From: Rugalucina vietnamica
Taxonomy: Eukaryota; Mollusca; Bivalvia; Lucinida; Lucinidae
DNA length: 64,000 nucleotides
Assembly (NCBI GenBank): GCA_964017185.1
Contig: OZ024879.1
Span: 27,624,956 to 27,688,955 of the forward strand
Direction of reading: 5' to 3'
Shown: positions 10,141 through 57,900 of the stretch, in pieces
How positions within the stretch are numbered: position 1 is the first letter of the stretch
Layout of the letters: each line of letters opens with the position of its first letter
Notes under the pieces: generated by a model
Databases searched by the model: none
Seen by the model: only the letters and a program-made list of their open reading frames with translations
What the model was told of the DNA's origin: nothing
Translations under genes and position numbers: made by a program

Positions 10141-10547
10141 GCTATTGTACAATATGGCCCATCTTCTCGCTTTGAATGTTTTACTGCTGCTTCCAAAGGA
10201 TCTAACAATTATTTTATTTGCTATTACTGCAGCTGGTGTTGTGCCGTGTGGCGGCCCTAAAAGTCTTTCCGTTCATCATCCATAGTGCAGATTATATTTT
10301 TCTTTTGATCCTTTGGGATCAGTGAATATATTTGGAGTATTTCAAATACATTTACGTTAAGATTCATCTGCTCAACAGTATTTTGATTATTTGGCCCCTT
10401 TGGGAATATGTTTTTGATTTAGACTACACAGATGTAAATTCTTGAAAATGCAGCAACAAATTTCGGGCTTTCGCTGCCAGTTTTATAAAAGGTCACTGAT
10501 GAACGTTCATTACCCGTATGCTGCCTCAAAGGTTTAATGAAAACCAA
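10141..10547 (+). repeat. ~370-bp dispersed repeat, copy with an uninterrupted target site
   Basis: This segment shares with 43,268-43,379 and 57,543-57,900 the blocks 'attgtacaatatggccca', 'aaaggatctaacaattat', 'cagctggtgttgtgccgtgt' and 'gctttcgctgccagttttat'. At 10,202-10,230 it shows the undisturbed sequence at the place where the 14.2-kb LTR element is inserted in the other copy. No coding potential or terminal structure was seen. Confidence 0.75.
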
Positions 10548-11173: not shown

Positions 11174-12841
11174 GTGGATAAACGTATTAAGTTTTATTCA
11201 CAAAATACTAATCTTTTACCTCCTAAACCCAAATCGTCATTTAGGCATTTGAAGCAGGGTATCCAAGAATTTCATAGAAAGTATGTCTTGATTCCGGCAG
11301 ATAAAGCCGCTAACAATGTTGTTGTCGTTTGTAGGCTTCACTACGTTAACACCTTAAAACAGGAGCTTGATGGTACCAGGGCTTATCTGGAGACAGATAC
11401 TGATGAGGTGTCTGTAGTTAATGCCCACTTAAACGATTTACCTGTTAAGTTTTCTGTTTGTGTCAATGAAGGCCAAGACAAACTTCCTACGATGTATTGG
11501 TTACCTAAGCTTCACAAAAGACCATACAAAGCTAGATTTATTGCAAATTCTAGCTCTTGTACTACCACTGAACTTTCTAAATTATTAACTTCCTGTCTTA
11601 CTGCTATCAAATCTCATGTTATAAGATACTGTGAGACAGTGTATGAAACTTCAAATAAAAATTGGTTTTGGTCAATTAAAAATTCTGGTGAGGTGCTCAG
11701 TAAATTGAAGTGTAGAGGGTTCCGTGCGACAAGCTTGTCCACATATGATTTTTCTACTCTGTATACAACATTACCACATAATCTAATTAAAGAAAAACTT
11801 CTGGATTTGATAGAGTGGACCTTCAAAAGGGCATTAAAAAACTATGGTTCACTTTATTTGGCATGTAATGACAGAAAGGCTTTTTTCACTTCCTCTGACC
11901 AAAGTCGGTATACACTTTGGTCATGTCAGAATGTGTGCGACGCCTTATCCTATTTCCTTGATAATATTTATATTAGATTTGGGACCAAGTTATACAGACA
12001 AATTGTTGGAATTCCGATGGGTACAAATTGCGCACCTCTCGTAGCTGATTTATTTTTATACTGCTACGAAAGAGATTTCATGGATTCTCTTAACCATGAT
12101 AATCAAGCTGATGTTATCGAGGCTTTTAATTCCACATCTAGGTACCTCGATGACCTTCTGAACATTGACAACCCTTATTTTGAAGGTATGGTCAATCAAA
12201 TTTATCCACCTGAACTTCAGTTAAACAAAGCCAATATCTCAGATACCGAAGCCCCCTTTTTAGATCTACATCTTTCTGTTTCAAATGGATTTGTTTCTTC
12301 TAAAATTTATGATAAGCGCGATGACTTTGATTTTGATATAGTAAATTTTCCTTTTTTGGATGGTGACGTTCCTCGTCGTGCTTCTTATGGTGTATACATT
12401 TCGCAACTTATTAGGTTTGCTAGAGTCTGCAATCATGTTACAGACTTCAACGCTCGAAATAAATGTTTAACGGCAAAACTTCTTCAACAGGGCTATCGGT
12501 ATCATAAACTTCGAAAAACCTTTTCTAAATTTTATCGTAGACACTATGAATTGATTTCCAAATATAATGTTGGGTTAAAGACGCTTTTAAGTGAGGGCCT
12601 TGCGGAACCTGAATTTTATGGTGACTTGGTTTACAAATTTAAGAAACTTAAAGGAATTAACGATTTTTCTTTTCAGTTCAGAAAAATCATAACACGTTAC
12701 AGACGTATAGGTTATAACTTGAATGTTATGCGACAGTCTGCATGCTTAGTTTTTAACCCAATCACGGTTGATAACTATGCTGCCTTCTTTAATTGCACGC
12801 CGGTGGGTCGGGCGTCAGACTCTATGATGGCCCCGACTTAA
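11174..12841 (+). CDS. Penelope-like reverse transcriptase
   Basis: A 555-codon reverse transcriptase that copies element RNA into DNA in the nucleus. Visible motifs in order: a PADKAANNVVVV block near residue 43, the LPKLHK motif near residue 109, the catalytic block STYDFSTLYTTLP near residue 190, GIPMGTNCAPLVADLFLY near residue 283, and RYLDDLL near residue 322 with the two Asp expected of the active site. FLDLHLS follows. This motif set fits Penelope-like RTs better than LTR or LINE RTs. The same frame is open back to 10,919, so the true start is probably upstream and the ATG used here is nominal. No C-terminal endonuclease follows; the protein ends about 40 residues after the conserved basic region. 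Confidence 0.7.
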   Translation: MDKRIKFYSQNTNLLPPKPKSSFRHLKQGIQEFHRKYVLIPADKAANNVVVVCRLHYVNTLKQELDGTRAYLETDTDEVSVVNAHLNDLPVKFSVCVNEGQDKLPTMYWLPKLHKRPYKARFIANSSSCTTTELSKLLTSCLTAIKSHVIRYCETVYETSNKNWFWSIKNSGEVLSKLKCRGFRATSLSTYDFSTLYTTLPHNLIKEKLLDLIEWTFKRALKNYGSLYLACNDRKAFFTSSDQSRYTLWSCQNVCDALSYFLDNIYIRFGTKLYRQIVGIPMGTNCAPLVADLFLYCYERDFMDSLNHDNQADVIEAFNSTSRYLDDLLNIDNPYFEGMVNQIYPPELQLNKANISDTEAPFLDLHLSVSNGFVSSKIYDKRDDFDFDIVNFPFLDGDVPRRASYGVYISQLIRFARVCNHVTDFNARNKCLTAKLLQQGYRYHKLRKTFSKFYRRHYELISKYNVGLKTLLSEGLAEPEFYGDLVYKFKKLKGINDFSFQFRKIITRYRRIGYNLNVMRQSACLVFNPITVDNYAAFFNCTPVGRASDSMMAPT

Positions 12842-13098
12842 AGCTATTCATTTTAGTTGGTTGGGGCCGGAGCTTCTTGTCTGTTGCTTGGCCCACCGGG
12901 GTCCAACTGGTGTTTTTCTTTTGCTCCGGAGTAAGTAGGTTATTCGGCGCCCAGGGATCTCCATCGTCGGGCAGCTTACTCAATCTGTGAGTCCTGGATT
13001 TTGATTCATCGGGATGTTTATCATGATTTATTTGTTTGTTCTTGATGATTCATTGACTAGTTAGAGATTCACCACAAGGACCAAATAACTAACTAAAT

Positions 13099-13462
13099 GT
13101 TATGAACCACTGCAGAAGCTGAGGGTGAGGTTAGGTACCTGTAAAACCGGTTTAAGCCCGCCAGTAACTTTGTGTTACTGATCGTTCCAAGTCGATACTT
13201 CTGTAGTGGTTCTTTTTGTTTTATGTCTTGGTGTTTAATTTTTTTGTGCTGTTGCCGCCTTATGTATGTTTTAATATTTTAGTTAAGTTAAGGTAACTGA
13301 GTGGCCACCTATTGGGAAAATAGCTGCTCATTCGGCTTACGATATGTTTTATCGTATAATGTACCTGATTGTTACTTTGGGTTTTTTCCCACCTCGGTTT
13401 TTGGAGTGGGAATCTTTTTCTGATTGCGTCTTTTCCTGATCTTTGCCTACTTGTACCTTTTT
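13099..13462 (+). repeat. Penelope-associated tail repeat, reference copy
   Basis: This is the terminal ~365 bp of the Penelope-like element. The first ~110 nt can fold into a closed structure. The strand gaaccactgcagaag pairs with cttctgtagtggttc over 15 bp including one wobble, enclosing the hairpin CAGTAAC-TTTGT-GTTACTG. The 3' terminus 'cttgtacctttttacaaaaagg' is locally palindromic. Other copies lie at 206, 35,461, 39,378, 41,801, 42,016, 42,797 and, diverged, 61,573. Confidence 0.8.
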
Positions 13463-42015: not shown

Positions 42016-42410
42016 GAATGTTATGAACCACTGCAGAAGCTGAGGGTGAGGTTACGGCCGTGTAAAATCGATTTAAACCCGCCAGTAACTTTTTGTTACT
42101 GATCGTTCCAAGTCGATACTTCTGTGGTGGTTCTTTTTGTTTTATGTCTTGGTGTTTAATATTTTTGTGCTGTTGGCGCCTTATGTATGTTTTCTTATTT
42201 TTAGTTTAGTTAAGGTAACTGATTGACCAGCTATAGGGAAAATAGCTGCTCATTCGGCTTACGAAATGTTTTCATGGTATAGGTACCTGATTGTTAGTTT
42301 GGTTTTGGTATAGGTATCTGATTGTTAGTTTGGTTTTTTCCCACCTAGGGTTTTTGGAGTGGGTATCTTTTGCTGATTGCGCCTTTTCCTGATCTTTGCC
42401 TACTTGTACC
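42016..42410 (+). repeat. Penelope-associated tail repeat, copy C
   Basis: A full tail with the 15-nt stem strands and the hairpin CAGTAAC-TTTTT-GTTACTG. A tandem duplication of about 32 bp containing 'ggtataggtacctgattg' lies at about 42,276-42,340. It ends at 'gcctacttgtacc'. Confidence 0.85.
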
Positions 42411-43267: not shown

Positions 43268-43379
43268 GCCAGTTTTATAAAGGGTCACTTATGAAGGCCC
43301 ATAACCCGAAATTGTACAATATGGCCCACCTTTTCACTTTCAATGTTTTTACTGATTCCAAAGGATCTAACAATTATAT
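43268..43379 (+). repeat. ~370-bp dispersed repeat, left part split by the LTR element
   Basis: It shares 'gctgccagttttataaaggg' and 'aattgtacaatatggcccac' with 10,141-10,547 and with the right part at 57,543-57,900. Bases 43,376-43,379 (atat) are the left target duplication of the inserted element. Confidence 0.75.
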
Positions 43380-44190
43380 TGTGGCAAGCCTGGGCGATTG
43401 ATTGTTTATTGTCATGAGATTTCGCGACTTCGCAATACATTTTGAGCTGTAGATTCCAAAATCGCTTTCCATTTACATTCATGTTACTTATATCGATCGA
43501 TCAACTTTAGTTCTTACTAATTAAACCAAATTCAGCGTTTATTTGCCGTTATTTTGGATGTTTGGGAATGAAATTATAAGTTTAATTGGTTTTGAAGTTT
43601 CTGCTCCTTCCGCGTTCGTCTGCGCATCTGTCTCGCGCATTCCGGATATTTTGACCGAAGTTCGGTATTTGGCGGTACCTGGGGTGCGGTACCGGAACCG
43701 GAATACCGATTCTGGACCGGACCTCAGGTACCGGAGCTGCTCTACTATATAAGGCGACCGTTGGAGCCGAACTTCGGTTGTGTCCTCAATCTCTCGTCAA
43801 AGAGCACGTTTCAACGCTTTTGTCATCCAAAAATGCAATAATACTTCTTCTACTCCTACCATAATAGTACCATTACAGTTTACATTGATATTGGTGAGAG
43901 TTAGTTACTATTTTAACCATTTTAAGACAGTTTCTCTAGTCTACTTATATAATTATCTCTTTAAGTCATTAGTTTCCGTGGGTCAAATCTTCATTCTTTC
44001 TCTCGGGTAGCCACACTAGTTCCCCTTGAGGTAGCCTACCAAGGCCTGTACCAATACCATTTAAGTAACTTCACCATTAGTTGAATAATAATTAAAGAAT
44101 TGATTCGAGAGACTTTGTTCCTTGTGATTTATTCACCGGACTTATAGCAACCCCGGTCACTCAAGAACCCCAGAGCCTAGGGTTGTTACA
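43380..44190 (+). repeat. 5' LTR
   Basis: 811 bp, starts TGTGGCAAGCCTGG and ends GGGTTGTTACA. U3 carries a dense cluster of GGTACC/ACCGG motifs at about 43,671-43,735, followed by the TATA box. ATTAAA at 44,091-44,096 is a candidate polyadenylation signal. A GGTGAGAG at about 43,889 could be a splice donor. ORFs inside the LTR (43,543-43,752, 43,780-44,010) recur in the 3' LTR and are not genes. Confidence 0.93.
43746..43754 (+). promoter_or_regulatory. TATA box in the LTR
   Basis: TATATAAGG, duplicated at 57,098-57,106 in the 3' LTR. Transcription would start about 25-30 bp downstream. Confidence 0.7.
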
Positions 44191-44191
44191 C

Positions 44192-44213
44192 TGGTGGCAG
44201 CGCGCTGGGATTC
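44192..44213 (+). promoter_or_regulatory. Primer-binding site, tRNA-Leu type
   Basis: TGGTGGCAGCG followed by CGCTGGGATTCG, one base after the LTR. It matches the complement of the tRNA-Leu(AAG)-type 3' end (TGGTGGCAGCG then GTGGGATTCG) with a 2-nt insertion, as I recall that tRNA. Confidence 0.75.
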
Positions 44214-44862
44214 GTACAGCTTTCCAGTAGTTCCAGAAGTCGGCATATTTTTCCGGTGTTATACAACGCTACCATTTTGTTTGTGTATTCAATGGTGATG
44301 GTGCAGAGATAACAGCATTTTGTTCTACATACAAATTTGTCTTTGGAGATCAACATGTCTTACAGATAGATCAACACCAGCTATCCAGTTTTAGTCAGAC
44401 TCTGGTCACTTAAACCAGCTCAGAAATGTATTCCAGAAGACTGACATACTGTGATATGTACCAAATTAAAATATTTCACATGGCTATCTATGAACGCAGA
44501 TCTGGCTATCTATGAACACAGATTAGGCAATCCTGAACTGATAAAATTGTTCTAGATTTATTTTGTGATACCTTCATCAATAGATTTAGTAATCTGGCAA
44601 CAATTTTCTTCTGGACTATATCAGCTCACCTATATTTATCATCATGTTGTACTGCGACGATTTGGTCATTTCACAAGAAGAAGTCATTATATCAGAAGAA
44701 GAAAGTTTTGTTGTATTTGTTTTAATATTGATCATTCTTCAACAATATACATCAGTTAGTACACAATAGATTTGACAATATAAATCAAATATCTTTAACA
44801 ATTTTTGAATATAATTGTGTTTAATTTACTTGAAACTGAACTGATTTGTGTTTGACTGAAAT
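44214..44862 (+). other. Leader between the primer site and gag
   Basis: AT-rich untranslated leader, about 650 nt, with several short upstream ATGs. It would hold the packaging signal, but I see no specific motif. Confidence 0.6.
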
Positions 44863-46419
44863 ATGGCATCAAACAAGGACCTAGATCCACAGACATCTAG
44901 CTCTTCACAGACTCCAAGATCAGGGTTGGGGACACAACCCCGCCAGTGCTACTCTGCTAGGGAACTGGGTACACCCAGCGGGGAGGTTATTTTTAATTTT
45001 AGTAGGCGTAATGAAGGACAGAATGAGGAAGACCAAGCCAACCTACCACTTGGCGGGAAATCATCCGGGGAGTCATCCGCCAGAGAGGCCTCACGGGGAT
45101 TCGGAAAGTCTCCATGGAGTAACAGAATGGGCAGGTTATCGGATATGCTGGATTCTGTTGGATCCCTAAGAAATGAAATAGCTGGCCAGATGACTACTTT
45201 GAATAATGGATCAGAACATGAGATGTCTTGCTCTAGAGGTGATGGTGAGTACCAGCCTAGGTTTGATGAAGAAAGCGCTTCATCAATTAGAGAGCGGAGA
45301 ATCGTTCGAGAGATATCCGGGCCACGTACCCTGACACTCGGTGAAGTAGAGGATTGCGAGAGGCCTGCTCAGATCCCTACAGCGAGAGGGGGAAGGGTCC
45401 ACAATTTCACAGTTGAACAAGACTCAAACAACTGGGGTGATTTCTGGCAGCGGGATGCACCTGGTCCGGGAAGGAGCAAACCGGACAACGAGGCGCAAAT
45501 GGATAGAAGTAGGAATTCTCAAAGCAGAGTAGGAATTGGTGGTCTCCCTTTGTACAGACCTAGGACTAATAATTTACCTTCTTCACAGCCACCCTTAAGA
45601 ACTAGTCACAAGAAACCTGCCAATTATGATGGCACTACCAGTTTTCAGGATTATTTGGTTCAATTTGAAATGACCAGTGAATTAAACAAATGGGATGAGA
45701 CTACAAAAGCTATGGAACTAGCTACAAGCTTAAGAGGGGCAGCTCAAAGCATTTTAGGTGATTTAAGGCCCGCCCAGTATAAAGATTACGAGTACCTAGT
45801 ATCCGTCTTAACAGATAGGTTTGAGCCCTTAAACCAAACAGAATTATACAGAGCACAAATAAAGGGTAGATTACGAAAGAAATCTGAGACCGTTCAAGAA
45901 CTTGCCCAAGATATCAAACGTCTAGTTAGGCGCGCATATCCCCAAGCAGCTATCGACTTACGCAATCAAATCGCAAGAGATTGTTTTATCGATGCTCTCA
46001 ATGAGCATGAATTAGAATGGTTTGTGTATCAAGGTAAACCCAAAACAGTAGATGAAGCGACGCAGTTGGCGTTAGAGTATGAAGCTTTTCAGAGTGGTCG
46101 AAAAAGATCAGTAATGGTTAGGCAATGCTCTAAGGGAGATAACTCTGATACTGACCCATTGACAAAAATTACAGAGCAAATACAAAAACTGCAAACTGAG
46201 ATGGAAAAGATTAAAGAAAAATCCAGTAAAGGCATAATTTGTCATTCTTGCGGGGAAAGGGGCCACAAAATGATCCGTTGTCCAAAGAACAATAATCAGC
46301 AAAACCACCCTTATAATCGTTACCATAACAACAACAACAGTAGTTATCAAAATAGGGGTAACAATAATCGGTACACCAATGGCAACAGAAACTCTAACAA
46401 CCAGGGAAACTCCCAGTAG
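44863..46419 (+). CDS. gag: Gag polyprotein of the 14.2-kb gypsy element
   Basis: A 518-residue Gag that would assemble the particle around element RNA. Residues 1-250 are polar and disordered, rich in S, R, G and E. Residues about 255-420 match the retrotransposon gag domain pattern (NYDGTTSFQDYLVQFEM ... LATSLRGAAQSILGDL). A coiled coil (KITEQIQKLQTEMEKIKEK) precedes one CCHC zinc knuckle at about residues 460-473 (CHSCGERGHKMIRC). The C-terminus is Asn-rich, probably RNA-binding. The ATG follows stops in the leader. The ORF ends with TAG at 46,417, just after a slippery heptamer, so Gag-Pol would arise by -1 frameshifting. The frame is fully intact. Confidence 0.93.
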   Translation: MASNKDLDPQTSSSSQTPRSGLGTQPRQCYSARELGTPSGEVIFNFSRRNEGQNEEDQANLPLGGKSSGESSAREASRGFGKSPWSNRMGRLSDMLDSVGSLRNEIAGQMTTLNNGSEHEMSCSRGDGEYQPRFDEESASSIRERRIVREISGPRTLTLGEVEDCERPAQIPTARGGRVHNFTVEQDSNNWGDFWQRDAPGPGRSKPDNEAQMDRSRNSQSRVGIGGLPLYRPRTNNLPSSQPPLRTSHKKPANYDGTTSFQDYLVQFEMTSELNKWDETTKAMELATSLRGAAQSILGDLRPAQYKDYEYLVSVLTDRFEPLNQTELYRAQIKGRLRKKSETVQELAQDIKRLVRRAYPQAAIDLRNQIARDCFIDALNEHELEWFVYQGKPKTVDEATQLALEYEAFQSGRKRSVMVRQCSKGDNSDTDPLTKITEQIQKLQTEMEKIKEKSSKGIICHSCGERGHKMIRCPKNNNQQNHPYNRYHNNNNSSYQNRGNNNRYTNGNRNSNNQGNSQ

Positions 46420-49400
46420 CTGATGCTGCGGGTCAAGTGTCAGCAGAATCCTCCCAACAACCAGACCCTGAAATTAATTTTAAGGCAAATGATGGTCTGT
46501 TTATACAATTAGAAATAGAAAATTTGTCGTTAAACTGTCTTCTTGACACGGGTAGTACGGTTACCATCATACATACACTTAAATTCCAGGCATTGTCAGA
46601 AAGGCTTCAACAGAAATTAGAACCGACTAAGTATGTCCTAAGAATGGCGGATGGTGCTCCAGTTCCTTGTGTAGGCCAAGCTTGTCTGCCCTTGAAAGTT
46701 GGAAATGAGGTCTTTCTCCAGTATGTATTGATTGCAGACATAGAAGCACCTTTTGTTTTAGGTTATGATTTCTTGTACCAAAACAACTGTCTTGTAGATG
46801 TACGCCAAGGTTTGTTCGTGTTTGAAGATCAGACTGTACAGTGTGTGCCCGAAAGCAACATGCCTTCTGTATTCCAAATTGCACTACAAGAGACAATTGA
46901 AATCCCAGCTCAAAGCGAAATGATAGCGTTTGGTAAATTTACAGGAGATAGACCCCACTTTTCCACAGCAATGATAGAGCCGTATGATCAAAGCCTTTCT
47001 GACAATGAGATTCTGCTGGCAAAAACTGTAATAGATACCAACTGCGCAGCCATTCCACTTCGCTTCGTAAATTTTAACAGTTTCCCGACTAAGATCTATA
47101 AAAACAAAATAGCTGCAGTTTGTGACATGGTCACTGTAGAATCAAACGGTCAAACTAATACAAATGACAATTCAAGAAATCTTTTCAGTATGAGCGTTCA
47201 CGAACAAGAGGAGATGCCCTTGCCTGAGCATTTGCAAGTAATATACAACTCGAGTACAGAAAATTTATCACCAGAACAAGCCGAGTCAGTCAAAGGTTTA
47301 TTACTAAAATATGCTCACATATTCTCTAAAACAAAGTCAGATTTAGGGAACTGCGATATTATACCGCATCGTATAAACACAGGATTGTCTCCCCCTATAA
47401 GGCTGCCACCGAGACGGGTACCTCTAGCCATCAAAGAAGCTGTAGAAACAGAAGTTCAGCATCTGATAGATACAAACTTAGTAACAAAAAGCAAAAGTGC
47501 ATGGGCATTTCCTCTCGTACCTATCAAAAAGAAAGATGGTAGCATTAGAATATGCGTTGACTACCGGAAATTAAATGAAGTGACACTGCCAGATTCTTAT
47601 CCGTTACCTAGGGTTCAAGATTGTCTAGATGCGCTCGAAGGTGCTAGCTGGTTTTCTGTATTAGATTGCACCTCAGGATTTTTCCAAATTGAGACCCACC
47701 CAAATGATAGGGATAAAACAGCTTTCATTTGTCACAAAGGTCTCTTTGAATTTAAAGTTCTTCCGATGGGGTTAATCAATAGTCCAGCGACGTACCAGAG
47801 AATCTTAGAAACTATCATGGCAGGAAAACAGTATGAAACATGCTTGATCTATTTGGACGACCTTATAGTCTACTCCAAAACATTTGACGAGCACTTGCAG
47901 AGACTAGATGAAGTTTTCGAAAGAATTAGCTTTGCGAACTTAAAATTCTCGCCGAAAAAATGTTTTCTTTTCAGTAGAGAGACAAAATTCTTGGGACATA
48001 GGGTTTCCGCCAATGGGGTATCGACTTGCGATGACAAAGTAGTTGCCGTAAAAGAATGGCCTATACCAACTTGCGTGAAAGATCTTAGGGCTTTCCTCGG
48101 CCTAGCCTCATACTACCGTCGTTTCATAAAGTCCTTTAGTACAATTGCTGCCCCTCTGAACAAACTAACTGAAAAAGGAGTCAATTTCCGATGGTCTTCG
48201 GAATGTCAAACAGCATTTGATTCTTTGAAATCAGCTTTAGTATCTGCCCCTATCTTAGGTTATCCTAATTCCCACGATACTCTGTACCTGGATTGTGATG
48301 CATCATCAGTGGGAATTGGAGCAGTTTTATCACAGGTACAGAATGGACAAGAGCGTGTAATCGCCTACTTCAGTAAAAGTTTGAACAAAACTCAGCGCCA
48401 ATATTGTGTGACAAGGCGCGAATTACTAGCCATATTTGAGGCCGTAAAACATTTTCATTGTTATTTGTATGGTGTTCAATTTATAGTTAGAACAGACCAT
48501 GGTGCTCTTTCATGGCTTATGAAGTTCAAAAATCCCAGTGGACAATTAGCCAGATGGCTGGAAGTGTTGAGTACATACAGGTTTACAATCGAACACAGGG
48601 CGGGCGTAAAACATGGAAATTGTGATTCGCTCTCAAGAGTTAATCGCCCTTGCTCTGCTTGTATACATTGTGAACGCCGTGAACAAGAGGAGAGAGAAGC
48701 ACAATCAAATGATGTGGACAACTGCCGATGTAACCAGTCAAAATCAGAGAAAAGAGAGACTGGGTCAAACTCAGTGATTTTCAATGGTCAAAGGGAGAAA
48801 ACTCCAACAAATTTGACTAAAAATGAAAGTGAGAATAAACTGTCTTTTGAAGCTGAGATGCCAATCTGCAATGACAGTAGGACTGACAATTGCGACGATA
48901 AGGGTTGGGATTCAATGGCCAAGAGTCCAAATCCTTATGGGAGCGAGAAGTCAGAAAATGAAAATGGACATGTTAATCATATTCAAGGACAAAAATGTTA
49001 CAATATAAATTCAAGTGAAGTTGATGTGAATATGGAAAAATGGAAGGAAGCTCAGATTTTAGATTCAAGTATTTCAGTTCTGTACAAGGGGAAGCAACAA
49101 AATATGCGTCCTTCGTGGGAGGACATATCACATACGAACGAAGAGACGAAAACTTATTGGGCTCAGTGGTCTCGACTTGAGCTGCATAATGGTGTATTAT
49201 GTCGAAAGTATTTTGATACCAAAACAGACACAACTTTCTTACAAATAGTACTACCTAAGAGCCTTCGTGATGAAATTTTAACAGAACTGCATGATCATGT
49301 GACTAGCGGACATTTAGGTACTATGAAAACTCTAGAAAAAGTGAAACGCCGTTTCTATTGGCATGACTATAAAGCATTCGTAGAAAGCTGGTGTAGAAAA

Positions 49401-50330
49401 TGTCTGCTGTGTCAATCTAGGAGCCTCCCAAAACTTCGTCCTCGAGCACCAATGAAACAGAGTAGAACAGAAACACCCCTACAGCGAGTTAGTCTGGATC
49501 TATTAGGACCGTTTCCTGAAACAGAAAAGAACCATTACAAATATGTTTTATCAATTTGTGATCACTTTACTCGATGGATAGAGCTTTATCCGATGCGAGA
49601 TATGGAAGCAAGCACTGTTGCTAGGATTTTTGTAGAAGAATTTGTGAGTCGACACGGCCTTGTGCGACAAATACTAACTGATCAAGGGAGACAATTTGAA
49701 TCAAAACTTTTCCAGGAAATATGTCAACTTCTTGACATTGATAAAAAGCGTTCAACAAGTTTCCATCCTCAAACCAATGGAATTCAAGAGCGATTCAATA
49801 GAACCATTGAGGATATGCTTAGTAAATATGTGTCAGCAAATCAAAGAGATTGGGATAAGTATTTACCAATATTATTGCTGGCATACAGGTCCTCAATACA
49901 TGAGAGTACTCATCAGACACCGTATATGATGATGTTTGGTCGTCACGCCCTCCTACCCGTGGATCTGGTCTGTCCTCAACCAAGTACTGAAAGGGAAATG
50001 ACAAGTCATGAATATGTAGATGCTCTAAAAGAGCGACTTGAAAAAGTGTATAAATTAGCTCAATCTGAAATGGCGCAAGCTTGTGACAGACAGAAAAAGA
50101 CCTACGATCATCGCATTTACGTCATACCATATTCAATTGGTGACCTAGTGTGGCTACGAAACCCAATGAAAACTAGAGGCAAATGTCCAAAACTTCAGCC
50201 CAGGTGGGAGGGTCCCTATAAGATACGTAGACAAATTTCAGACTTAGTTTTCGAAATTGAAAAGGTCAAAGGTTCCCGAGTTCAACGGAAGATCGTACAC
50301 AGAAACAGGTTAAAACCTTGTATCCAGTAA
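46398..50330 (+). CDS. pol: Pol polyprotein of the 14.2-kb gypsy element
   Basis: About 1,300 codons with every enzymatic domain intact. The aspartic protease has LLDTGSTVTIIH (about residue 35 from the ATG at 46,437). RT has SIRICVDYRKLNEV, FSVLDCTSGFFQI and the catalytic LIYLDDLIVYS (about residue 470). RNase H has YLDCDASSVGIGAVL. The integrase zinc finger is H-x4-H then CLLC near 950-995, and the core has SLDLLGP, LTDQGRQFES and GIQERFNRTIED, supplying D, D and E. A GPY/F-type end (RWEGPYKIRRQ) follows, and no chromodomain is seen. A charged linker of roughly 140 residues separates RNase H from integrase. The frame opens at 46,398 without a required ATG, as expected for a frameshift product. 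Confidence 0.95.
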   Translation, partial: QPGKLPVADAAGQVSAESSQQPDPEINFKANDGLFIQLEIENLSLNCLLDTGSTVTIIHTLKFQALSERLQQKLEPTKYVLRMADGAPVPCVGQACLPLKVGNEVFLQYVLIADIEAPFVLGYDFLYQNNCLVDVRQGLFVFEDQTVQCVPESNMPSVFQIALQETIEIPAQSEMIAFGKFTGDRPHFSTAMIEPYDQSLSDNEILLAKTVIDTNCAAIPLRFVNFNSFPTKIYKNKIAAVCDMVTVESNGQTNTNDNSRNLFSMSVHEQEEMPLPEHLQVIYNSSTENLSPEQAESVKGLLLKYAHIFSKTKSDLGNCDIIPHRINTGLSPPIRLPPRRVPLAIKEAVETEVQHLIDTNLVTKSKSAWAFPLVPIKKKDGSIRICVDYRKLNEVTLPDSYPLPRVQDCLDALEGASWFSVLDCTSGFFQIETHPNDRDKTAFICHKGLFEFKVLPMGLINSPATYQRILETIMAGKQYETCLIYLDDLIVYSKTFDEHLQRLDEVFERISFANLKFSPKKCFLFSRETKFLGHRVSANGVSTCDDKVVAVKEWPIPTCVKDLRAFLGLASYYRRFIKSFSTIAAPLNKLTEKGVNFRWSSECQTAFDSLKSALVSAPILGYPNSHDTLYLDCDASSVGIGAVLSQVQNGQERVIAYFSKSLNKTQRQYCVTRRELLAIFEAVKHFHCYLYGVQFIVRTDHGALSWLMKFKNPSGQLARWLEVLSTYRFTIEHRAGVKHGNCDSLSRVNRPCSACIHCERREQEEREAQSNDVDNCRCNQSKSEKRETGSNSVIFNGQREKTPTNLTKNESENKLSFEAEMPICNDSRTDNCDDKGWDSMAKSPNPYGSEKSENENGHVNHIQGQKCYNINSSEVDVNMEKWKEAQILDSSISVLYKGKQQNMRPSWEDISHTNEETKTYWAQWSRLELHNGVLCRKYFDTKTDTTFLQIVLPKSLRDEILTELHDHVTSGHLGTMKTLEKVKRRFYWHDYKAFVESWCRKCLLCQSRSLPKLRPRAPMKQSRTETPLQRVSLDLLGPFPETEKNHYKYVLSICDHFTRWIELYPMRDMEASTVARIFVEEFVSRHGLVRQILTDQGRQFESKLFQEICQLLDIDKKRSTSFHPQTNGIQERFNRTIEDMLSKYVSANQRDWDKYLPILLLAYRSSIHESTHQTPYMMMFGRHALLPVDLVCPQPSTEREMTSHEYVDALKERLEKVYKLAQSEMAQACDRQKKTYDHRIYVIPYSIGDLVWLRNPMKTRGKCPKLQPRWEGPYKIRRQISDLVFEIEKVKGSRVQRKIVHRNRLKPCIQ
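46404..46410 (+). promoter_or_regulatory. -1 ribosomal frameshift site GGGAAAC
   Basis: In the gag frame the heptamer reads G GGA AAC, the canonical X XXY YYZ form. It lies 6 nt before the gag stop codon, inside the 22-nt overlap (46,398-46,419) of the gag and pol frames. Slippage places ribosomes exactly in the pol frame, which is closed upstream by a TAA at 46,395. A 3' structure is not obvious by eye, though short GCTG/CAGC complementarity exists downstream. Confidence 0.8.
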
Positions 50331-50917
50331 TCTTGTTCTGTGCCCGTATTCTCGTTGTTAATGAAACAGCTGGAAGTTGTATAGAGTACAGCTATTTAAG
50401 TCAAAGTTTAACAGCCTTGTGTATTTTTTTTTATTGTTGTAAGGAAAATGCACATAAAATGATGTCATGTCTGAGAATATCATTCACCTCGCAGACTGCA
50501 AACCACAAAAATATACTTACATGGTCTGTAGGGTGTAAAGAGCTCTAGTACGCCTTCAAAAGTCTACGTCTCACAACCAGTATCTGACCTGAGAATTCCT
50601 GAAAAAGAAATAGAAGCATATTGATAGAATATCATCACTGATTTAGTACTGACATGGTTTCTTATAAAATGCTTCAATATTTAATATTGTTTTCTTTCTG
50701 AAATTTTAATTTTGCGTATACTATTTAGAGTATACCTTCAGGCGTCAATTCAATAATGATACTGCACATATGATAAATTGGCGGCCATTTTGTCTCCATC
50801 TTTGCCGACATTAGCTGAGCTGCAATGCTACCACTGGCATAGTGAAACTTTAAACTGTCTCTGAAAACAAAGGGTGGATAATAAATACCATGCTCTATCC
50901 TATCATTTCAGATCACT
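50331..50917 (+). other. Spacer between pol and the third ORF
   Basis: Non-coding, AT-rich. It ends with ctatcctatcatttcag at 50,895-50,911, a good 3' splice-acceptor-like sequence 6 nt before the ATG of the third ORF. Confidence 0.6.
50895..50911 (+). promoter_or_regulatory. Splice-acceptor-like sequence upstream of ORF3
   Basis: Pyrimidine-rich tract followed by CAG at 50,909-50,911, then ATCACT and the ATG at 50,918. It could allow a spliced subgenomic mRNA for the third ORF, as retroviruses do for env. The alternative is a leftover intron end from a captured gene. Confidence 0.45.
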
Positions 50918-51235
50918 ATGGCAGACAACAGAGTTGTACGTAGATCGACTTTCCCGGAGGCTATTTCAACTCACACCTGTGAGCGTTGTGGTAGAATATT
51001 CAACGACCTCCGTGGTTTCAGACGACATCTTAGGGAAGTGCATGGGCCAAGAGTTCGGTGTAAATACTGTGGTGCTGATTTTTCCATACACAGGTCATAT
51101 GACCTGCAAATTCATGAGTCCAAATGCCAACGTGACAACTACAGAGCCACTGGACGATTTCGTAAACAACGAGAGCAGAATTCCAGAGATGTAAGACCCA
51201 GAGACCATTATCAGGCAAATAGGCCGAGAGACCAT

Positions 51236-51625
51236 GGTCAGCCTGCAAGACCCAGAATTGAAAGTCAAGGTCAAAAACAAACCCAACGCCCTGTTGACAA
51301 TAGAACAGAGAATGAACCTACAAATACAGTTCAGCATGGTCAGCCTCTAAGACCCAGAATTGAAAGTCAAGGTCAAAATCAAACCAAACGCCCTGTTGTC
51401 AATAGAACAGAGAATCAATCTACAAACACAGTTCAGCCTCTAAGACCCAGAAATGAAAGTCAAGGTCAAAATCAAACCCAACACCCAGTTGTCAATAGAA
51501 CCGAAAACCAACCTACAGTTCAGCATGTTCAGCCTCTTAGACCCAGAAATGAAAGTCAAGGTCAAAACCAAACCCAACACCCTGTTGTTAATAGAACAGT
51601 GAATCAACCTACAAGTACAGTCCAG
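51236..51625 (+). repeat. ~90-bp coding tandem repeat, 4 copies
   Basis: Four copies of a unit containing 'agacccagaattgaaagtca' and 'ccctgttgtcaatagaacag', with in-frame length variation (units of about 84-102 bp, all multiples of 3). It encodes the Q/N/R/P-rich repeats of ORF3. Unit lengths staying in multiples of three suggests past protein-level selection. Confidence 0.85.
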
Positions 51626-52029
51626 TCAGCAGGACAGACTTCGTTGGTGACCCTGTTTGAGGATTTGCCAGCCTCTCCATACCTAAATGTAGATTTAAGT
51701 GGAAACCCATGTAGTCCGGAAATAAATTTAGGGCTTTATGATCAGTCTCATGAGACTATGAATCTCTTTACCGAGCTTGAGCTTGATTCATTTTTCAATA
51801 CAAATGCAACATCTCATCAGCAGGAAACTGTTCCGTCCAGTACTATCGCATCAACAGTTCTTTCTAATAATGTTTGTAGTACTACATGTAGCACTTCTAC
51901 TACATGTAGCAGTTCTGCTTCCACAAATGTGTCTAACATAAATGATCTTTTATCTAATAATTCGGGGCCTATCTCTTTATTCACTGCCGATGGAAAGCAA
52001 ATTCTACTCCTACCTCAGGGATGGCAGGC

Positions 52030-52670
52030 AATTCAGACGAACGTACCGACAGAGACATCGCATACAGACACAAACGTACGGACAGACAAACCGGATACAG
52101 AGACAAACGTACAGAGAGAAATACTGCGTACAGAAATAAACGTACAGGCAGACACACCGCGTACAGAGACAACGCGTACAGAGACAAACGTACAGAGAGA
52201 AATACCGCGTACAGAAATAAACGTACAGGCAGACACACCGCGCAGAGACGAACGTACAGAGAGAGACAACGCGTACAGAAACAAACGTACGGACAGACAC
52301 ACCGCGCACAGAGACGAACGTACACAGAGAGGCAACGCGTACAGAGACAAATGTACCCACAGAGACAACGCGTACAGAAACAAACGTACGGACAGACACA
52401 CCGCGCAGAGACGAACGTACAGAGAGAGACAACGTGTACAGAAACAAACGTACAGACAGACACACCGCGCACAGAGACGAACGTACAGAGAGAGACACCC
52501 CATACAGAGACAAACGTACAGAGAGAAATACTGCGTACAGAAATAAACGTACAGAGAGACACAACTCGTACAGAGACAATCGTACAGAGAGAGACAAACG
52601 TACCAACAGAGACATCGCGTACAGAACCAAACGTACGGACAGACACACCGTGTACAGAGACGACTACAAA
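52030..52670. repeat. Tandem array of ~24/36-bp units, open in nearly all frames
   Basis: Degenerate repeats built from 'acagagacaaacgtacagag' and 'gacagacacaccgcgtacag'. On the plus strand two frames stay open nearly throughout, and on the minus strand three frames of 212-230 codons are open. Units lacking CA (cgcgcagagac instead of cgcgcacagagac) occur at about 52,240 and 52,401. The ORFs on the minus strand are considered artefacts. Confidence 0.85.
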
Positions 52671-53376
52671 GACTAAGACGGTACGACCATTTGAATTTAT
52701 TCCAAAAGCTACAACAAGTCATCAAGAAATAGAGGAGCCTACAGGACCACCTACAGCTTGTTTATCATTATCTTCATCATCATCATCCTCCTCTTCATCA
52801 TCTATTTCTTCTTCCTCGACAACCACTTCATCTTCTTCTTCTTCACCTAATACCCCATTAAAATTACCAAAAAGAGCAGCATCTCGCTCTCCAGTTTTGG
52901 AGCCTCACACTCCAGTATCAGAGCGGAAGAGGAGGAGATTACTGTATGAGCCAACTGGGAATATCAGTGAGGAGGACTATGTCGTTTATTCGCCCTCCAT
53001 GCCCCCCTATTCACCAGAGCCACCTGAGTATGAGCCAACAAAGATTGACCAGAAGAAGCCGAAATTTCCACCAAAACCCCTACACATTCCACTAAATCCA
53101 GTAAAAGATCGTTATTCCTTCCTGGCTCATGATCCTAGAACTCTATTTGCCGGTGCACCATCTTCCTTTTTGCAATCTATGGAAGCTAGAATCATGTGCA
53201 GGGCCAGAAAGGAGGCTCTGCAGATTGGGGCACAGCCCGGGGATATCAAGTATTACATTGACGGGCACGTGATGACAAAAACGGAGACAGTAAAAAAAGA
53301 CGACTTCTTCTACCGACTGACAACAACTGTTACCCCAATACCTACCTCGACAAGAATGGAACACTACACAGACTGA

Positions 53377-56300
53377 TGAGGAGTTTGACTTTCCCCGCTG
53401 TTCCAAAGACTGTCAGGGCTGCGGCAGACGTTTTACCTGTCAATAATAGAAATTTCTAAATTAATTATACATCACTATCTTTGCTGTTACTCTATGAAAA
53501 CATACCTGCATTTTACTGTCAAATCATTATACAAAAAGTATGAAATTAAGACCAAATAATGTTATAGAATTTTGGGTGTTTAAAATTAATGTCAGAATAT
53601 TTATATTTTTTTCTTTCCAAAACTGTTTTCATTGATGAAGTGTTTCCTCTTGACTTGCCGTGTCTGGGATTTTTTTTAGTGTAAATGTCAAGATATTTTT
53701 GTATATTATCCTTAAAATAATCTGATACTTCAACCTCATTCCTAATATTATACTTCACCACATTCTGTCAAAGCTCCCTCAGCCTTCTAGCTCCTCTTCT
53801 ACTACTGCTCCTCTTCAGGATTCTCTTCTTGTCTTCTTGTTTGAATCATTTTCCATCTTACATGTACTTCAGAGTATTTCAAGTAAAGATTTCTACCATA
53901 ATTTGTCTACCTTTTACACACAAAGGAGATTTATGAAATATTGTTCTTTAAATAAATGGATTTTGACATTTATTATCAGACAAACTTAAAGAACATTTTA
54001 AAAGATAACATTCTAGTCATTGTATAGAAGTCTGTTTAGTAATGTTGTATTTTAGCTCCTGAGACTGATCATGACTGTTTTAGTGTTAAATATCTTAACA
54101 TTATGATACATTCCATTGGATATTTACTGGGACTGTACATTTGTATTGAATTCTGTTTATAGGGTTGTTCAGATTATTATTAGGAAGGGGGCTCTAAATA
54201 TTTGACTGTGAGGATGTGAATTTAATGTGCAGATTCTGAGTCTGAGTTTCTGTAGGGCACCATTATGTCAGTCTGTAGCTCAAGCTGATTCTAGTAAACA
54301 TTTCATTGATTTCATAAGGAAGGAGAGTTAATAATTTTAAGACTATGGATTTGACGTTAATTCAAGTATTATAACGTTTAAATTAGCTGTATGTATGTAC
54401 AGTGCCTGTAGTAAATATACATGGGCAAATGACTGTTATATGATTTTGTTTGCTAAACTATGTACATCAGATGTTTTGTTCAAGTTGCAACCAAATACTG
54501 TTGTATGTGATGCTGATGATCTCAAATTATCATTATTGTTATTATTGCTGTTGTTATTGGAGATATTGCTCAAATCTACTGCATGTGCCATATTAGTAAT
54601 GACAAAATAATATTATTTCATTAGTTTATCATTATAAATATAGATATATATTTTTATGTGTTCCTCAAAGTTCTAGTCAGAATATTTCATAACATTCCAT
54701 CAGATTCATCTCGTTTCAAAATTATTTCCATGACTTCTCATAGAGTAAGATTTTGCAATTTTTAAATGGCTTATTTTTCAATTAAATGATACAAGTCATA
54801 AATATTAAGTGATACATTTTTTTTTCTTATTTTCTAAACATTCGTCCATTTAAGAAGTTCAAAAGATCTCATTTTTATAAATTCATCAGCATCATTCATT
54901 TTTGTTTGTCATTGAAATATTTTATTGAAAAAAAAAAAAAAATAAAATAAAAAAAAAAAAAAAAGTTACTGACAATGCATTTTTGAGATCAAATGTTTTG
55001 TTGAGGAGTCTGGTTTTGTGCCTCAGATGCTGTGGCAGTTTAAGACATTATTGGAATGAAATTTTACCACAGTGAATGAAATTGCATTGCTAAATTGATT
55101 TATCAAGAATGCATGTCACTATGACTGAATGATAGTACTTTTAATATGAATGTTGGTTGCTGTGTTAACACATTGTATAATTCAAATACAGTTCAAGGGA
55201 GATAACTGGTGATTGTATATTGTATTGTATGCCTTTTTCAACAACTTTGTATGCCCTTGCTGGGCTCAAAATTGGTCAAATTAAGTCTTGTATTGTAAGT
55301 GTTGTAACTGATGTCATGCATATAGGATTCTCCTGAGTGGAAAATGTGTATGTGTATACTTTTGAAGATATTTTTTTTTCCCTTTTGATGTCAATAAAAA
55401 AAATGTCCATCTGATTATTAGCAAATTAAGTCAGATCAATCATAATTACATGCTGTATAATGAGTTGCATAAATCTAAAAGTTTTCTAGATATCAAGGAT
55501 GATTATATATGTCTTGAATGTCCATCATATGATATATTCAGCATTCAGTCTAAATCAATATTACTGTATAGATCATCAGGATAGAAATAAGGTTGTATTT
55601 GTGTATGTTTTTAAAGATATGAATGTGCAGATCTATTTAACATTTAGATCTTTTCTTCAGATGTTTCCTTAAGAATTTCATAGTGTGTAAATGTCTGATT
55701 TTGATAAGTTAACTTTCTAACACAGCAACCAAACTACTTGTGTTCATATGTATTGAATTGAATGTAGAATTATGACTGTGTTTTGTGTTAATTCATAAAT
55801 TTATTGTTTTGTGAAAGAGAACGGTTAAATGTCACAGATGTATTCCAAGATCTATTTCTTGGATAAATTTTATCCAAAACGATAAGGTAGAGTATGAATT
55901 TGGTATAATTAAGTTGATATGTGCAGGCTTGTAATTTTAACTTGTCTTTTTCAAAAAGATTGCTTAATATTACATTACAAGTGTGAAGGTGACATTATAG
56001 CCATTCCTCTCTTTCTTTTGCATGTATTTGGTACAGGTCTTGATTGTTTAATATAGTTGTTCTTCTAAACATGTATAATATTGACTTTATGTTGATCTAT
56101 GATACATGGGAATATTGCTCCCTATTGCTCAAATATTGTTAATTCCATCTTGCTCAAGATGTATCTTTTGTGTCATATTTGAAGCAGTTGTGCCTTAACT
56201 ATTGATGAATCTTGTAGTGTACATGTTGATAATTGATATAAAGAAATCTTAATTCAGTGTTCATATTCAAATCAATCTAAATCAAATATGGACTGTTCTT

Positions 56301-56390
56301 TAATGTGTGTTACAATTTAAAGTGTGATTTGCTTCGAATTATTTCAAAAATTGATTTTTTTATAATTTTCTGTGAAATGTCAGAGTTTAG
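53377..56390 (+). other. ~3-kb non-coding region inside the element
   Basis: AT-rich, no ORF with a motif. It contains several AATAAA signals (for example near 53,950 and 55,393), A-rich runs at 54,928-54,964 and a short CTG/TTA-rich stretch near 54,535. It looks like a long 3' UTR. The ORFs 53,546-53,761 (minus) and 54,395-54,610 (plus) show no signature. Confidence 0.6.
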
Positions 56391-56623
56391 ATTGCGGAAT
56401 GGTCCAGTGGTAGGATCTTGTGTTTCGAGCTGGTGGATCCTGTGTCCGAGTTTTAATCATAGTGTGTTTAGACGTGACCACGAGTAAGTCACATTCCCTG
56501 CTTATGACGCATTGCTCAGAAATTACTACATTTAGAAAGAAAAATAACATATAGGTACTCTTGAATATTTTTTCTATGTTAATAAAATATTTCTCAGTAA
56601 AAAAAAAAAAAAAAAAAAAAAAA
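56391..56623 (+). mobile_element. tRNA-derived SINE (family 3) with poly(A) tail
   Basis: The head (attgcggaatggtccagtgg) has an A-box-like start and a degenerate B box (gtgtccgagtttta). The body has 'acgagtaagtcacattccc' and 'gacgcattgctcag', the kind of conserved core seen in many invertebrate SINEs. It ends AATAAAATATTTCTCAG plus about 25 A. A possible short duplication is aaatgtca on both sides. It is carried inside the LTR element. Confidence 0.65.
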
Positions 56624-56717
56624 TGTCATTGTTGCATCGTATTGATACCTTATGTCATGTGGTATTTTATTTGAATATATGCATTATTGTTTTTAAGTTC
56701 GAGGACGAACTTGGGTT

Positions 56718-56731
56718 GAAGGGGGGGATAG
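56718..56731 (+). promoter_or_regulatory. Polypurine tract
   Basis: GAAGGGGGGGATAG directly upstream of the 3' LTR. Confidence 0.85.
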
Positions 56732-57542
56732 TGTGGCAAGCCTGGGCGATTGATTGTTTATTGTCATGAGATTTCGCGACTTCGCAATACATTTTGAGCT
56801 GTAGATTCCAAAATCGCTTTCCATTTACATTCATGTTACTTATATCGATCGATCAACTTTAGTTCTTACTAATTAAACCAAATTCAGCGTTTATTTGCCG
56901 TTATTTTGGATGTTTGGGAATGAAATTATAAGTTTAATTGGTTTTGAAGTTTCTGCTCCTTCCGCGTTCGTCTGCGCATCTGTCTCGCGCATTCCGGATA
57001 TTTTGACCGAAGTTCGGTATTTGGCGGTACCTGGGGTGCGGTACCGGAACCGGAATACCGATTCTGGACCGGACCTCAGGTACCGGAGCTGCTCTACTAT
57101 ATAAGGCGACCGTTGGAGCCGAACTTCGGTTGTGTCCTCAATCTCTCGTCAAAGAGCACGTTTCAACGCTTTTGTCATCCAAAAATGCAATAACACTTCT
57201 TCTACTCCTACCATAATAGTACCATTACAGTTTACATTGATATTGGTGAGAGTTAGTTACTATTTTAACCATTTTAAGACAGTTTCTCTAGTCTACTTAT
57301 ATAATTATCTCTTTAAGTCATTAGTTTCCGTGGGTCAAATCTTCATTCTTTCTCTCGGGTAGCCACACTAGTTCCCCTTGAGGTAGCCTACCAAGGCCTG
57401 TACCAATACCATTTAAGTAACTTCACCATTAGTTGAATAATAATTAAAGAATTGATTCGAGAGACTTTGTTCCTTGTGATTTATTCACCGGACTTATAGC
57501 AACCCCGGTCACTCAAGAACCCCAGAGCCTAGGGTTGTTACA
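56732..57542 (+). repeat. 3' LTR
   Basis: 811 bp, identical to the 5' LTR except for one base noticed by eye (C at 57,194). It is followed by the right copy of the ATAT duplication at 57,543-57,546. Confidence 0.93.
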
Positions 57543-57900
57543 ATATTTTATTTGCTATTACTTCAGCTGGTGTTGTGCCGTGTGGCGGCCCTAAAAAGTC
57601 TCCCCGTACATCATCCAAAGTGCAGCTTATATTTTTCTTTTGATCCTTTTGGATAATATTTGGAGTATTTCAAATTTTTATACGTTAATAATCATCTTCT
57701 TAACAGTATTTTGATTTTTGGCCCTTTGATTAAGACTAAACTGGTGTTAATTCTTGATATTGCAGCAATAATATTTGGCTTTCGCTGCCAGTTTTATAAA
57801 GGGTCACTGATGAACGATCATTACCCGAAATTGTACAATATGGCCCACATTTTCAGTTTTAATGTTTTACTCATTCCAACGGATCTATAAATTATATTTT
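57543..57900 (+). repeat. ~370-bp dispersed repeat, right part
   Basis: It continues the repeat interrupted at 43,379 and then starts a second unit (gctgccagttttataaaggg at about 57,787), so the repeat is at least partly tandem here. Confidence 0.75.

Follow-up and report, generated by a model that had tools for sequence, protein, structure and literature searches.

The element and its additional gene

The stretch analysed here (the window) comprises 64,000 nucleotides (nt) of the lucinid bivalve Rugalucina vietnamica (contig OZ024879.1, positions 27,624,956 to 27,688,955) and contains a long terminal repeat (LTR) retrotransposon in which a third coding region, here called ORF3, lies between pol and the 3' LTR (Table 1). 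Judged from its relatives, ORF3 appears to be an old accessory gene which is common to several related retrotransposon families and not a recent capture from the host, because homologues follow pol in other Gypsy families as well. It was previously treated in an initial annotation, made from the same DNA, as a possible captured host gene or a new accessory gene.

The element belongs to a low-copy Ty3/Gypsy family and inserted recently. As first proposed, the LTRs, which differ at a single base, the ATAT target duplication, the primer site and the polypurine tract delimit one element. Together with the order protease, reverse transcriptase (RT), RNase H and integrase in pol, these features agree with the definition of Ty3/Gypsy elements (Metaviridae). 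An element-free paralogous stretch in the window (10144-10516) confirms the insertion point, and the primer site is presumably a match to the 3' end of tRNA-Leu. The distance from the pol stop codon to the 3' LTR, initially estimated at about 6 kb, is 6.4 kb.

Table 1. Features of the Gypsy element in the window (positions in the window; aa, amino acids).
Feature	Position	Strand	Remarks
Whole Gypsy element	43380-57542	+	LTRs, target duplication, primer site, polypurine tract, gag, slippery site, pol
Target duplication ATAT	43376..43379 (left copy), 57543-57546 (right copy)	.	
5' LTR	43380..44190	+	811 bp, TGT...ACA; single mismatch to 3' LTR at 43842
Primer-binding site	44191..44210	+	directly 3' of 5' LTR; TGGTGGCAGCG
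gag	44863..46419	+	518 aa, one CCHC knuckle
-1 slippery heptamer GGGAAAC	46404..46410	+	in phase with gag; ends 6 nt 5' of the gag stop codon
pol	46437..50330	+	Pfam order protease, RT, RNase H, integrase; -1 frame relative to gag, frames overlap
pol-ORF3 spacer	50331..50911	+	ends in splice-acceptor-like TTTCAG (50906-50911)
ORF3 N-terminal frame	50918..52546	+	542 aa; stops within repeat block 2
ORF3 zinc fingers	50978-51043, 51059-51127	+	residues 21-42 and 48-70
ORF3 repeat block 1	51233..51625	+	period 96-102 nt, about 4 copies
ORF3 middle segment	51626..52036	+	motif DLPASPYLNVDLSG; counterpart in other families DLPASPELQVDLSG
ORF3 C-terminal frame	52021..53376	+	451 aa; conserved C-domain about 52918-53352
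ORF3 repeat block 2	52035..52672	+	33-nt units, some of 31, 48 or 18 nt; the window copy loses frame here
Non-coding AT-rich tail	53377..56382	+	large part also in the C16 and C10 copies
tRNA-like unit	56383..56623	+	box A at 56400, 25-A tail, short flanking repeat AAATGTCA
Polypurine tract, G-rich	56712..56731	+	adjoins 3' LTR
3' LTR	56732..57542	+	811 bp

ORF3 in the copies of the window's family

The two zinc fingers and the two repeat blocks seen in the initial annotation are present, but the region is not one open gene in the window copy: it consists of two overlapping reading frames in different phases, a frame loss that had been overlooked. Since the units of repeat block 2 contain little T, most of the block is free of stops in each of the three forward frames, and the copies in the window and on contigs C16 and C10 differ in the frame which reaches its end. 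The C-terminal frame of the window stops before it reaches a Cys-rich end; in the C16 copy this end is still open. The N-terminal part has a single relative in the protein databases (P0001, 463 aa, 77% over the queried part, on a 4.16-Mb contig), and both P0001 and the C16 copy switch out of the first frame within block 2 and terminate at its end. For the C-terminal part none of 7984 scored protein-database candidates was a relative, a search that was probably weakened by low-complexity words. No match was obtained in IMG/VR with the N-terminal part, pol, the C-domain or the ORF3 of the related locus L047, nor was there one in the GTDB genomes.

Searching the genome (a 1.09-Gb assembly of 47 contigs) with the LTR gave 11 rows. 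Internal sequence was found at three places, the window, C10 and C16, and all three carry ORF3 and much of the non-coding tail; the case of sister copies lacking ORF3, as expected if it were a later nested insertion, was not encountered. The C10 copy is rearranged and its LTRs are 94.1% identical; a single unbroken frame joins its block 1, block 2 and the first part of the C region, with other lesions present. The DNA fetched for the C16 copy contains neither a 5' LTR nor gag, and the 3' LTR is split; the N-terminal part of its ORF3 contains stops, while the C region is open to the Cys-rich end. At C3:1.209 Mb there is a solo LTR flanked on either side by GTAT, and around the LTR places on C14, C3:32.09 Mb and C17 no gag, pol or ORF3 was found in the 9-19.5 kb fetched. 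Since the window ORF3 is out of frame, the recent move suggested by the LTRs took place with a damaged ORF3.

The tRNA-like unit, also missed at first, forms the final 240 nt or so of the tail and is present in the C16 and C10 copies, too. Its box A is perfect, its box B has two mismatches, and an AATAAA lies upstream of the A-run; ARAGORN and Rfam called no tRNA at 56383-56623. A similar pair of boxes A and B exists at two further places in the window. We considered the 25-A run as the poly(A) of a captured host mRNA and rejected this, because the preceding box A and box B and the short flanking repeats favour a SINE-like (short interspersed element) unit.

Homologues in other Gypsy families and selection on ORF3

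An integrase query of the genome gave 132 scored places out of 3200 candidates. In families whose integrase is 49-69% identical to that of the window, homologues of ORF3 lie directly after pol (loci L040, L041 and L042, L046, L047 and L048, and L053). At C2:77.28 Mb (integrase 69%) ORF3 follows pol with a zinc-finger exon 40% and a C-domain 55% identical; it is likewise present after pol at C11:20.9 Mb (integrase 64%) and beside a broken pol at C2:14.46 Mb. Counting copy by copy, which covers the L047 family only (integrase 52%), we found ORF3 after the integrase at five of five places, four with uninterrupted frames of 871, 871, 869 and 892 aa and the fifth split by a gap of about 21.5 kb. 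In tblastn the L047 protein matches the window ORF3 in both its N part (1e-10) and its C part (1.7e-7). One of five places with 49% integrase identity and one of two with 51% were viewed, and both have ORF3 (L048, N 3.6e-6, C 0.011; L053, N 1.5e-7, C 5.7e-6). These homologues bear out the option of an accessory gene. As a separate observation, frames with zinc fingers also occur at L054 (1-1359) and L049, where the integrase is 42-44% identical; in L054 the frame is fused to the end of pol.

The conserved ends of ORF3 are under purifying selection. The ratio of non-synonymous to synonymous substitution rates (dN/dS) between the window and C16 or C10 is 0.28 or 0.19 in the zinc-finger part (first 315 nt) and 0.23 or 0.35 in the C part; for comparison, pol gives 0.21 (integrase) and 0.19 (RT) between the window and C16. 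Within other families the values are 0.03 for the zinc-finger exon of L040 and L041 (26 synonymous, 4 non-synonymous changes; integrase 0.26), 0.08 for positions 1-456 of ORF3 in L047 against L046 and 0.31 for the C-domain of L045 against L044, several of these and the former pairs being based on small numbers of changes. The selection on the conserved parts, combined with the homologues at the same place in other families, means that ORF3 is coding beyond chance. The synonymous divergence of the L040/L041 finger exon (dS 0.47) exceeds that of the neighbouring integrase (0.06). This suggests that sequence was exchanged between families and that a recombination breakpoint may lie here.

Splice signals

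In all six scored loci an acceptor-like site (polypyrimidine-YAG) is found 0-6 nt 5' of the ORF3 start codon, at a distance of 6 nt in the window, L040 and L041, 3 nt in L048 and 0 nt in L047 and L053; L042, in which the start was not found, was not scored. When compared with 2590 ATGs on both strands of the window, the quality of these acceptors is equalled by only 0.3-4.3% of the background, and a site as good as that of the window lies within 7 nt of 16 of these ATGs. As L040 and L041 are close relatives, the sites represent at most five independent lineages. In L040 and L041, CAG|GTAGGG stands at the end of the finger exon and TTTCAG in front of the repeat exon (both read by eye), which is consistent with an intron inside their ORF3.

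Protein plan

The homologues share a common plan of two N-terminal zinc fingers, fast-changing repeats specific for each family and a C-terminal domain (C-domain) with the signature DPR..F.GAPS. The fingers follow the patterns C-x2-C-x12-H-x4-H and C-x2-C-x14-H-x3-C, a C2H2-type pair whose Pfam matches are all beneath the cut-off. Sequence matches in PDB are C2H2 fingers of the nuclear proteins INSM1, ZBTB24, ZBTB17, ZNF423 and SALL4, all weak (best E 0.0008). A 185-aa frame elsewhere in the genome (L014 4803-5357, C12:12994.5 kb) contains half of finger 1 and finger 2 of ORF3 with 83% over 42 residues; after the fingers comes LPLHSTVNQKLKEKIWANEYVELSTVL, reminiscent of a different mobile-element protein, and a domain exchange between element types is possible.

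The motif of the C-domain, D-P-R/N-x-x-F-x-G-A-P-S, is succeeded in L047, L048 and L053 by K-x-E...P-x-G-x-x-Y. The domains of the window, L044 and L045 have 58 invariant columns, including a KRR, and in a profile comparison they match those of L047, L048 and L053 with an E value of 1.3e-6 and a probability of 90.6, both sets being shallow alignments. In a shuffle control the L047 domain is clear (43.1 bits, shuffle maximum 26.6). The C-domain has no Pfam match above cut-off and no match in PDB, and AlphaFold2 run on the single sequence reached a mean predicted local distance difference test (pLDDT) of 58 and a predicted template modelling score (pTM) of 0.23. Hydrophobic segments are missing from the window pieces (highest 19-residue Kyte-Doolittle means 0.59 and 0.71), and no membrane segment was detected across the window pieces, L047, L048 and L053 (highest 19-residue mean 1.34). 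The claim of the initial annotation that a non-envelope gene occupies the env position is therefore upheld.

Other parts of the element and the window

Gag scores below the Pfam cut-offs (PF03732 22 bits, cut-off 24.1; zf-CCHC 12.8, cut-off 20.8), and 100 homologues were found among 7991 scored protein-database candidates; their names refer to Mytilus, Sinanodonta, Potamilus and symbiont genomes assembled from metagenomes. In pol the RT, RNase H, H2C2 and rve (integrase core) profiles are above cut-off and the protease match is weak (18.5 bits, cut-off 28.2). Outside the element, the window contains a selenocysteine insertion sequence (SECIS) element at 12816-12883 (+) with 39 bits against an Rfam gathering threshold of 35. 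The surrounding stretch 12068-13233 recurs at 97% inside the C10 copy, so the SECIS may belong to a dispersed repeat. A twister-P1-like match at 42070-42133 (+) is weak (24.6 bits, gathering 67.2) and probably due to chance; the repeat is also seen near 206, 13096 and 39456.

Possible role of ORF3 and alternatives

We consider it reasonably probable that ORF3 has long been an accessory gene in its Gypsy lineage and encodes a nucleic-acid regulator, made from a spliced RNA and comparable to CERV of the Cer1 element or to Rev, and not an envelope. ORF3 would be translated from a spliced subgenomic RNA by way of the acceptor before its ATG, like retroviral env and the cerv gene of Cer1. The lack of membrane segments, the KRR at the start of the C-domain (window, L044, L045) and the fingers suggest that the protein is probably nuclear and acts on nucleic acid of the element. 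With less certainty, the fingers and the C-domain may bind the unspliced RNA (or the DNA) of the element, and the protein might in this way control export or use of the unspliced RNA. The broken window copy was most likely mobilised with ORF3 from another copy, or without needing ORF3.

Several points weigh against this interpretation. The middle segment has higher dN/dS values (0.51 and 0.60 for the window against C16 and C10), with few changes, and ORF3 is damaged in the window, C16 and C10 copies alike. For the C-domain alone L048 is marginal (25.8 bits, shuffle maximum 25.4) and L053 is not above its shuffles (30.0, maximum 30.4; one of 100 shuffles is as high). Among the five places viewed with an integrase of 41-47% identity, the distant families of L050 and L052 have no such reading frame within 3.2 kb; L049, L051 and L054 have finger-bearing frames, but these show no significant ORF3 match, no GAPS motif and no detectable C-domain and may thus be unrelated to ORF3. 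The evidence for the putative spliced subgenomic RNA consists of acceptor signals, and the single near-consensus donor in 44191-45300, at 45245, lies inside gag. Finally, the function is argued by analogy, through a comparison with the published description of CERV.

A nuclear DNA-binding factor, whose finger pair would act on LTR DNA or host chromatin and set transcription or the integration site, is a possible but clearly less probable role. It fits the C2H2-type pair and the weak PDB matches to fingers of nuclear proteins, and the TRP28 proteins of Retand elements are predicted to bind DNA (PMC11963269). However, ORF3 has only two fingers, and an arrangement like that of the spliced cerv gene suits control of RNA equally well. 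That ORF3 is a dispensable relic in the window's family, decaying while the element still moves, seems unlikely to us: the window ORF3 is out of frame in spite of LTRs with one difference, and frame loss or stops are also found in C16, C10 and P0001, but the dN/dS values of the finger and C parts in three copies are near those of pol, and help in trans would let damaged copies move.

A recent capture from host genomic DNA or mRNA by the window's family is very improbable. The A-run with its upstream AATAAA near the tail end and the single database relative of the N part could be taken in its favour, as could C11:44.006 Mb (L030 7849-8281), which matches the spacer at 50348-50776 with 81% identity, starts 18 nt past the equivalent of the pol stop and lies about 5.9 kb before a further ORF3 sequence; no pol was detected beside it in three fetched pieces, a point that also counts against the favoured reading of an old accessory gene. 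This ORF3 sequence at C11:44.01 Mb, examined as a recent host parent, was rejected, as it is a pseudogene full of stops. Moreover, the A-run closes the tRNA-like unit with its short flanking repeats, and homologues after pol are present in families whose integrase is 49-69% identical. Among 16 places in this genome, with 110 of 130 candidates given a score and three weak ones uninspected, none was recognised as an intact host parent. The earlier suggestion of a recently captured host gene is therefore not sustained. Even more remote is an envelope or other surface protein, for which only the position and the inferred spliced expression would speak; the window pieces, L047, L048 and L053 have no hydrophobic segment, and zinc fingers lie at the N-terminus.

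A bolder version of the regulator reading, to which we give little weight, is that ORF3 founds a family of bivalve Gypsy regulators which is deeply kept, combines fingers and GAPS domain and acts Rev/CERV-like on its own RNA, with a slippage switch in block 2 between a full and a short form in the window's family. Changes of repeat number in block 2 would then swap or remove the C-terminal domain, and the array would be where the short form ends, as is the case for P0001 and C16.

Comparison with known systems

The env genes of the insect errantiviruses occupy the same position in Gypsy elements and are expressed by splicing. ORF3 resembles them in position and inferred spliced expression, but has zinc fingers instead of a membrane segment. 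Regulators of the Rev/Rex type handle the unspliced RNA of retroviruses. The proposed handling of unspliced RNA would be a likeness to these (Rev is also discussed in PMC10309623), although ORF3 is much larger and no homology is claimed.

According to the same paper, CERV of the Caenorhabditis elegans element Cer1 is a non-envelope product encoded in the same position, made from a spliced mRNA with TTTCAG and needed for export of the genomic RNA, its Cys loop being essential (PMC10309623). The N-terminal half of CERV is described there as sharing peptides with Gag and the protein as having G and M domains and a C4-type loop, whereas ORF3 has an N-terminal C2H2/C2HC pair, repeats and the GAPS C-domain. 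We therefore compare ORF3 with CERV as possibly working alike, not as a member of the CERV family. The plant Gypsy elements Retand and Grande are similar to ORF3 in their long region between pol and 3' LTR, tandem repeats and an accessory reading frame proposed to regulate transposition; their additional reading frames are mainly antisense, while ORF3 is sense (PMC11963269, PMC7264820). TRP28 (PF04195) has no match in ORF3 at E values up to 1.

Literature searches, judged mostly from listings, returned no description of such a gene, and the main text of a survey of mollusc LTR elements contains neither 'zinc finger' nor 'envelope' nor words starting with 'ORF' (0 occurrences; PMC6238403). Where an animal Gypsy element has an additional gene in the place of env, this is readily mistaken for an envelope gene or overlooked. 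The finger pair, the GAPS domain and the acceptor before the ATG could serve as markers to recognise this class elsewhere. If the interpretation is right, such a regulator, conserved, with a new domain and distinct from an envelope, would join CERV of Cer1 as the second example for studying how an element that lacks an envelope handles its unspliced RNA.

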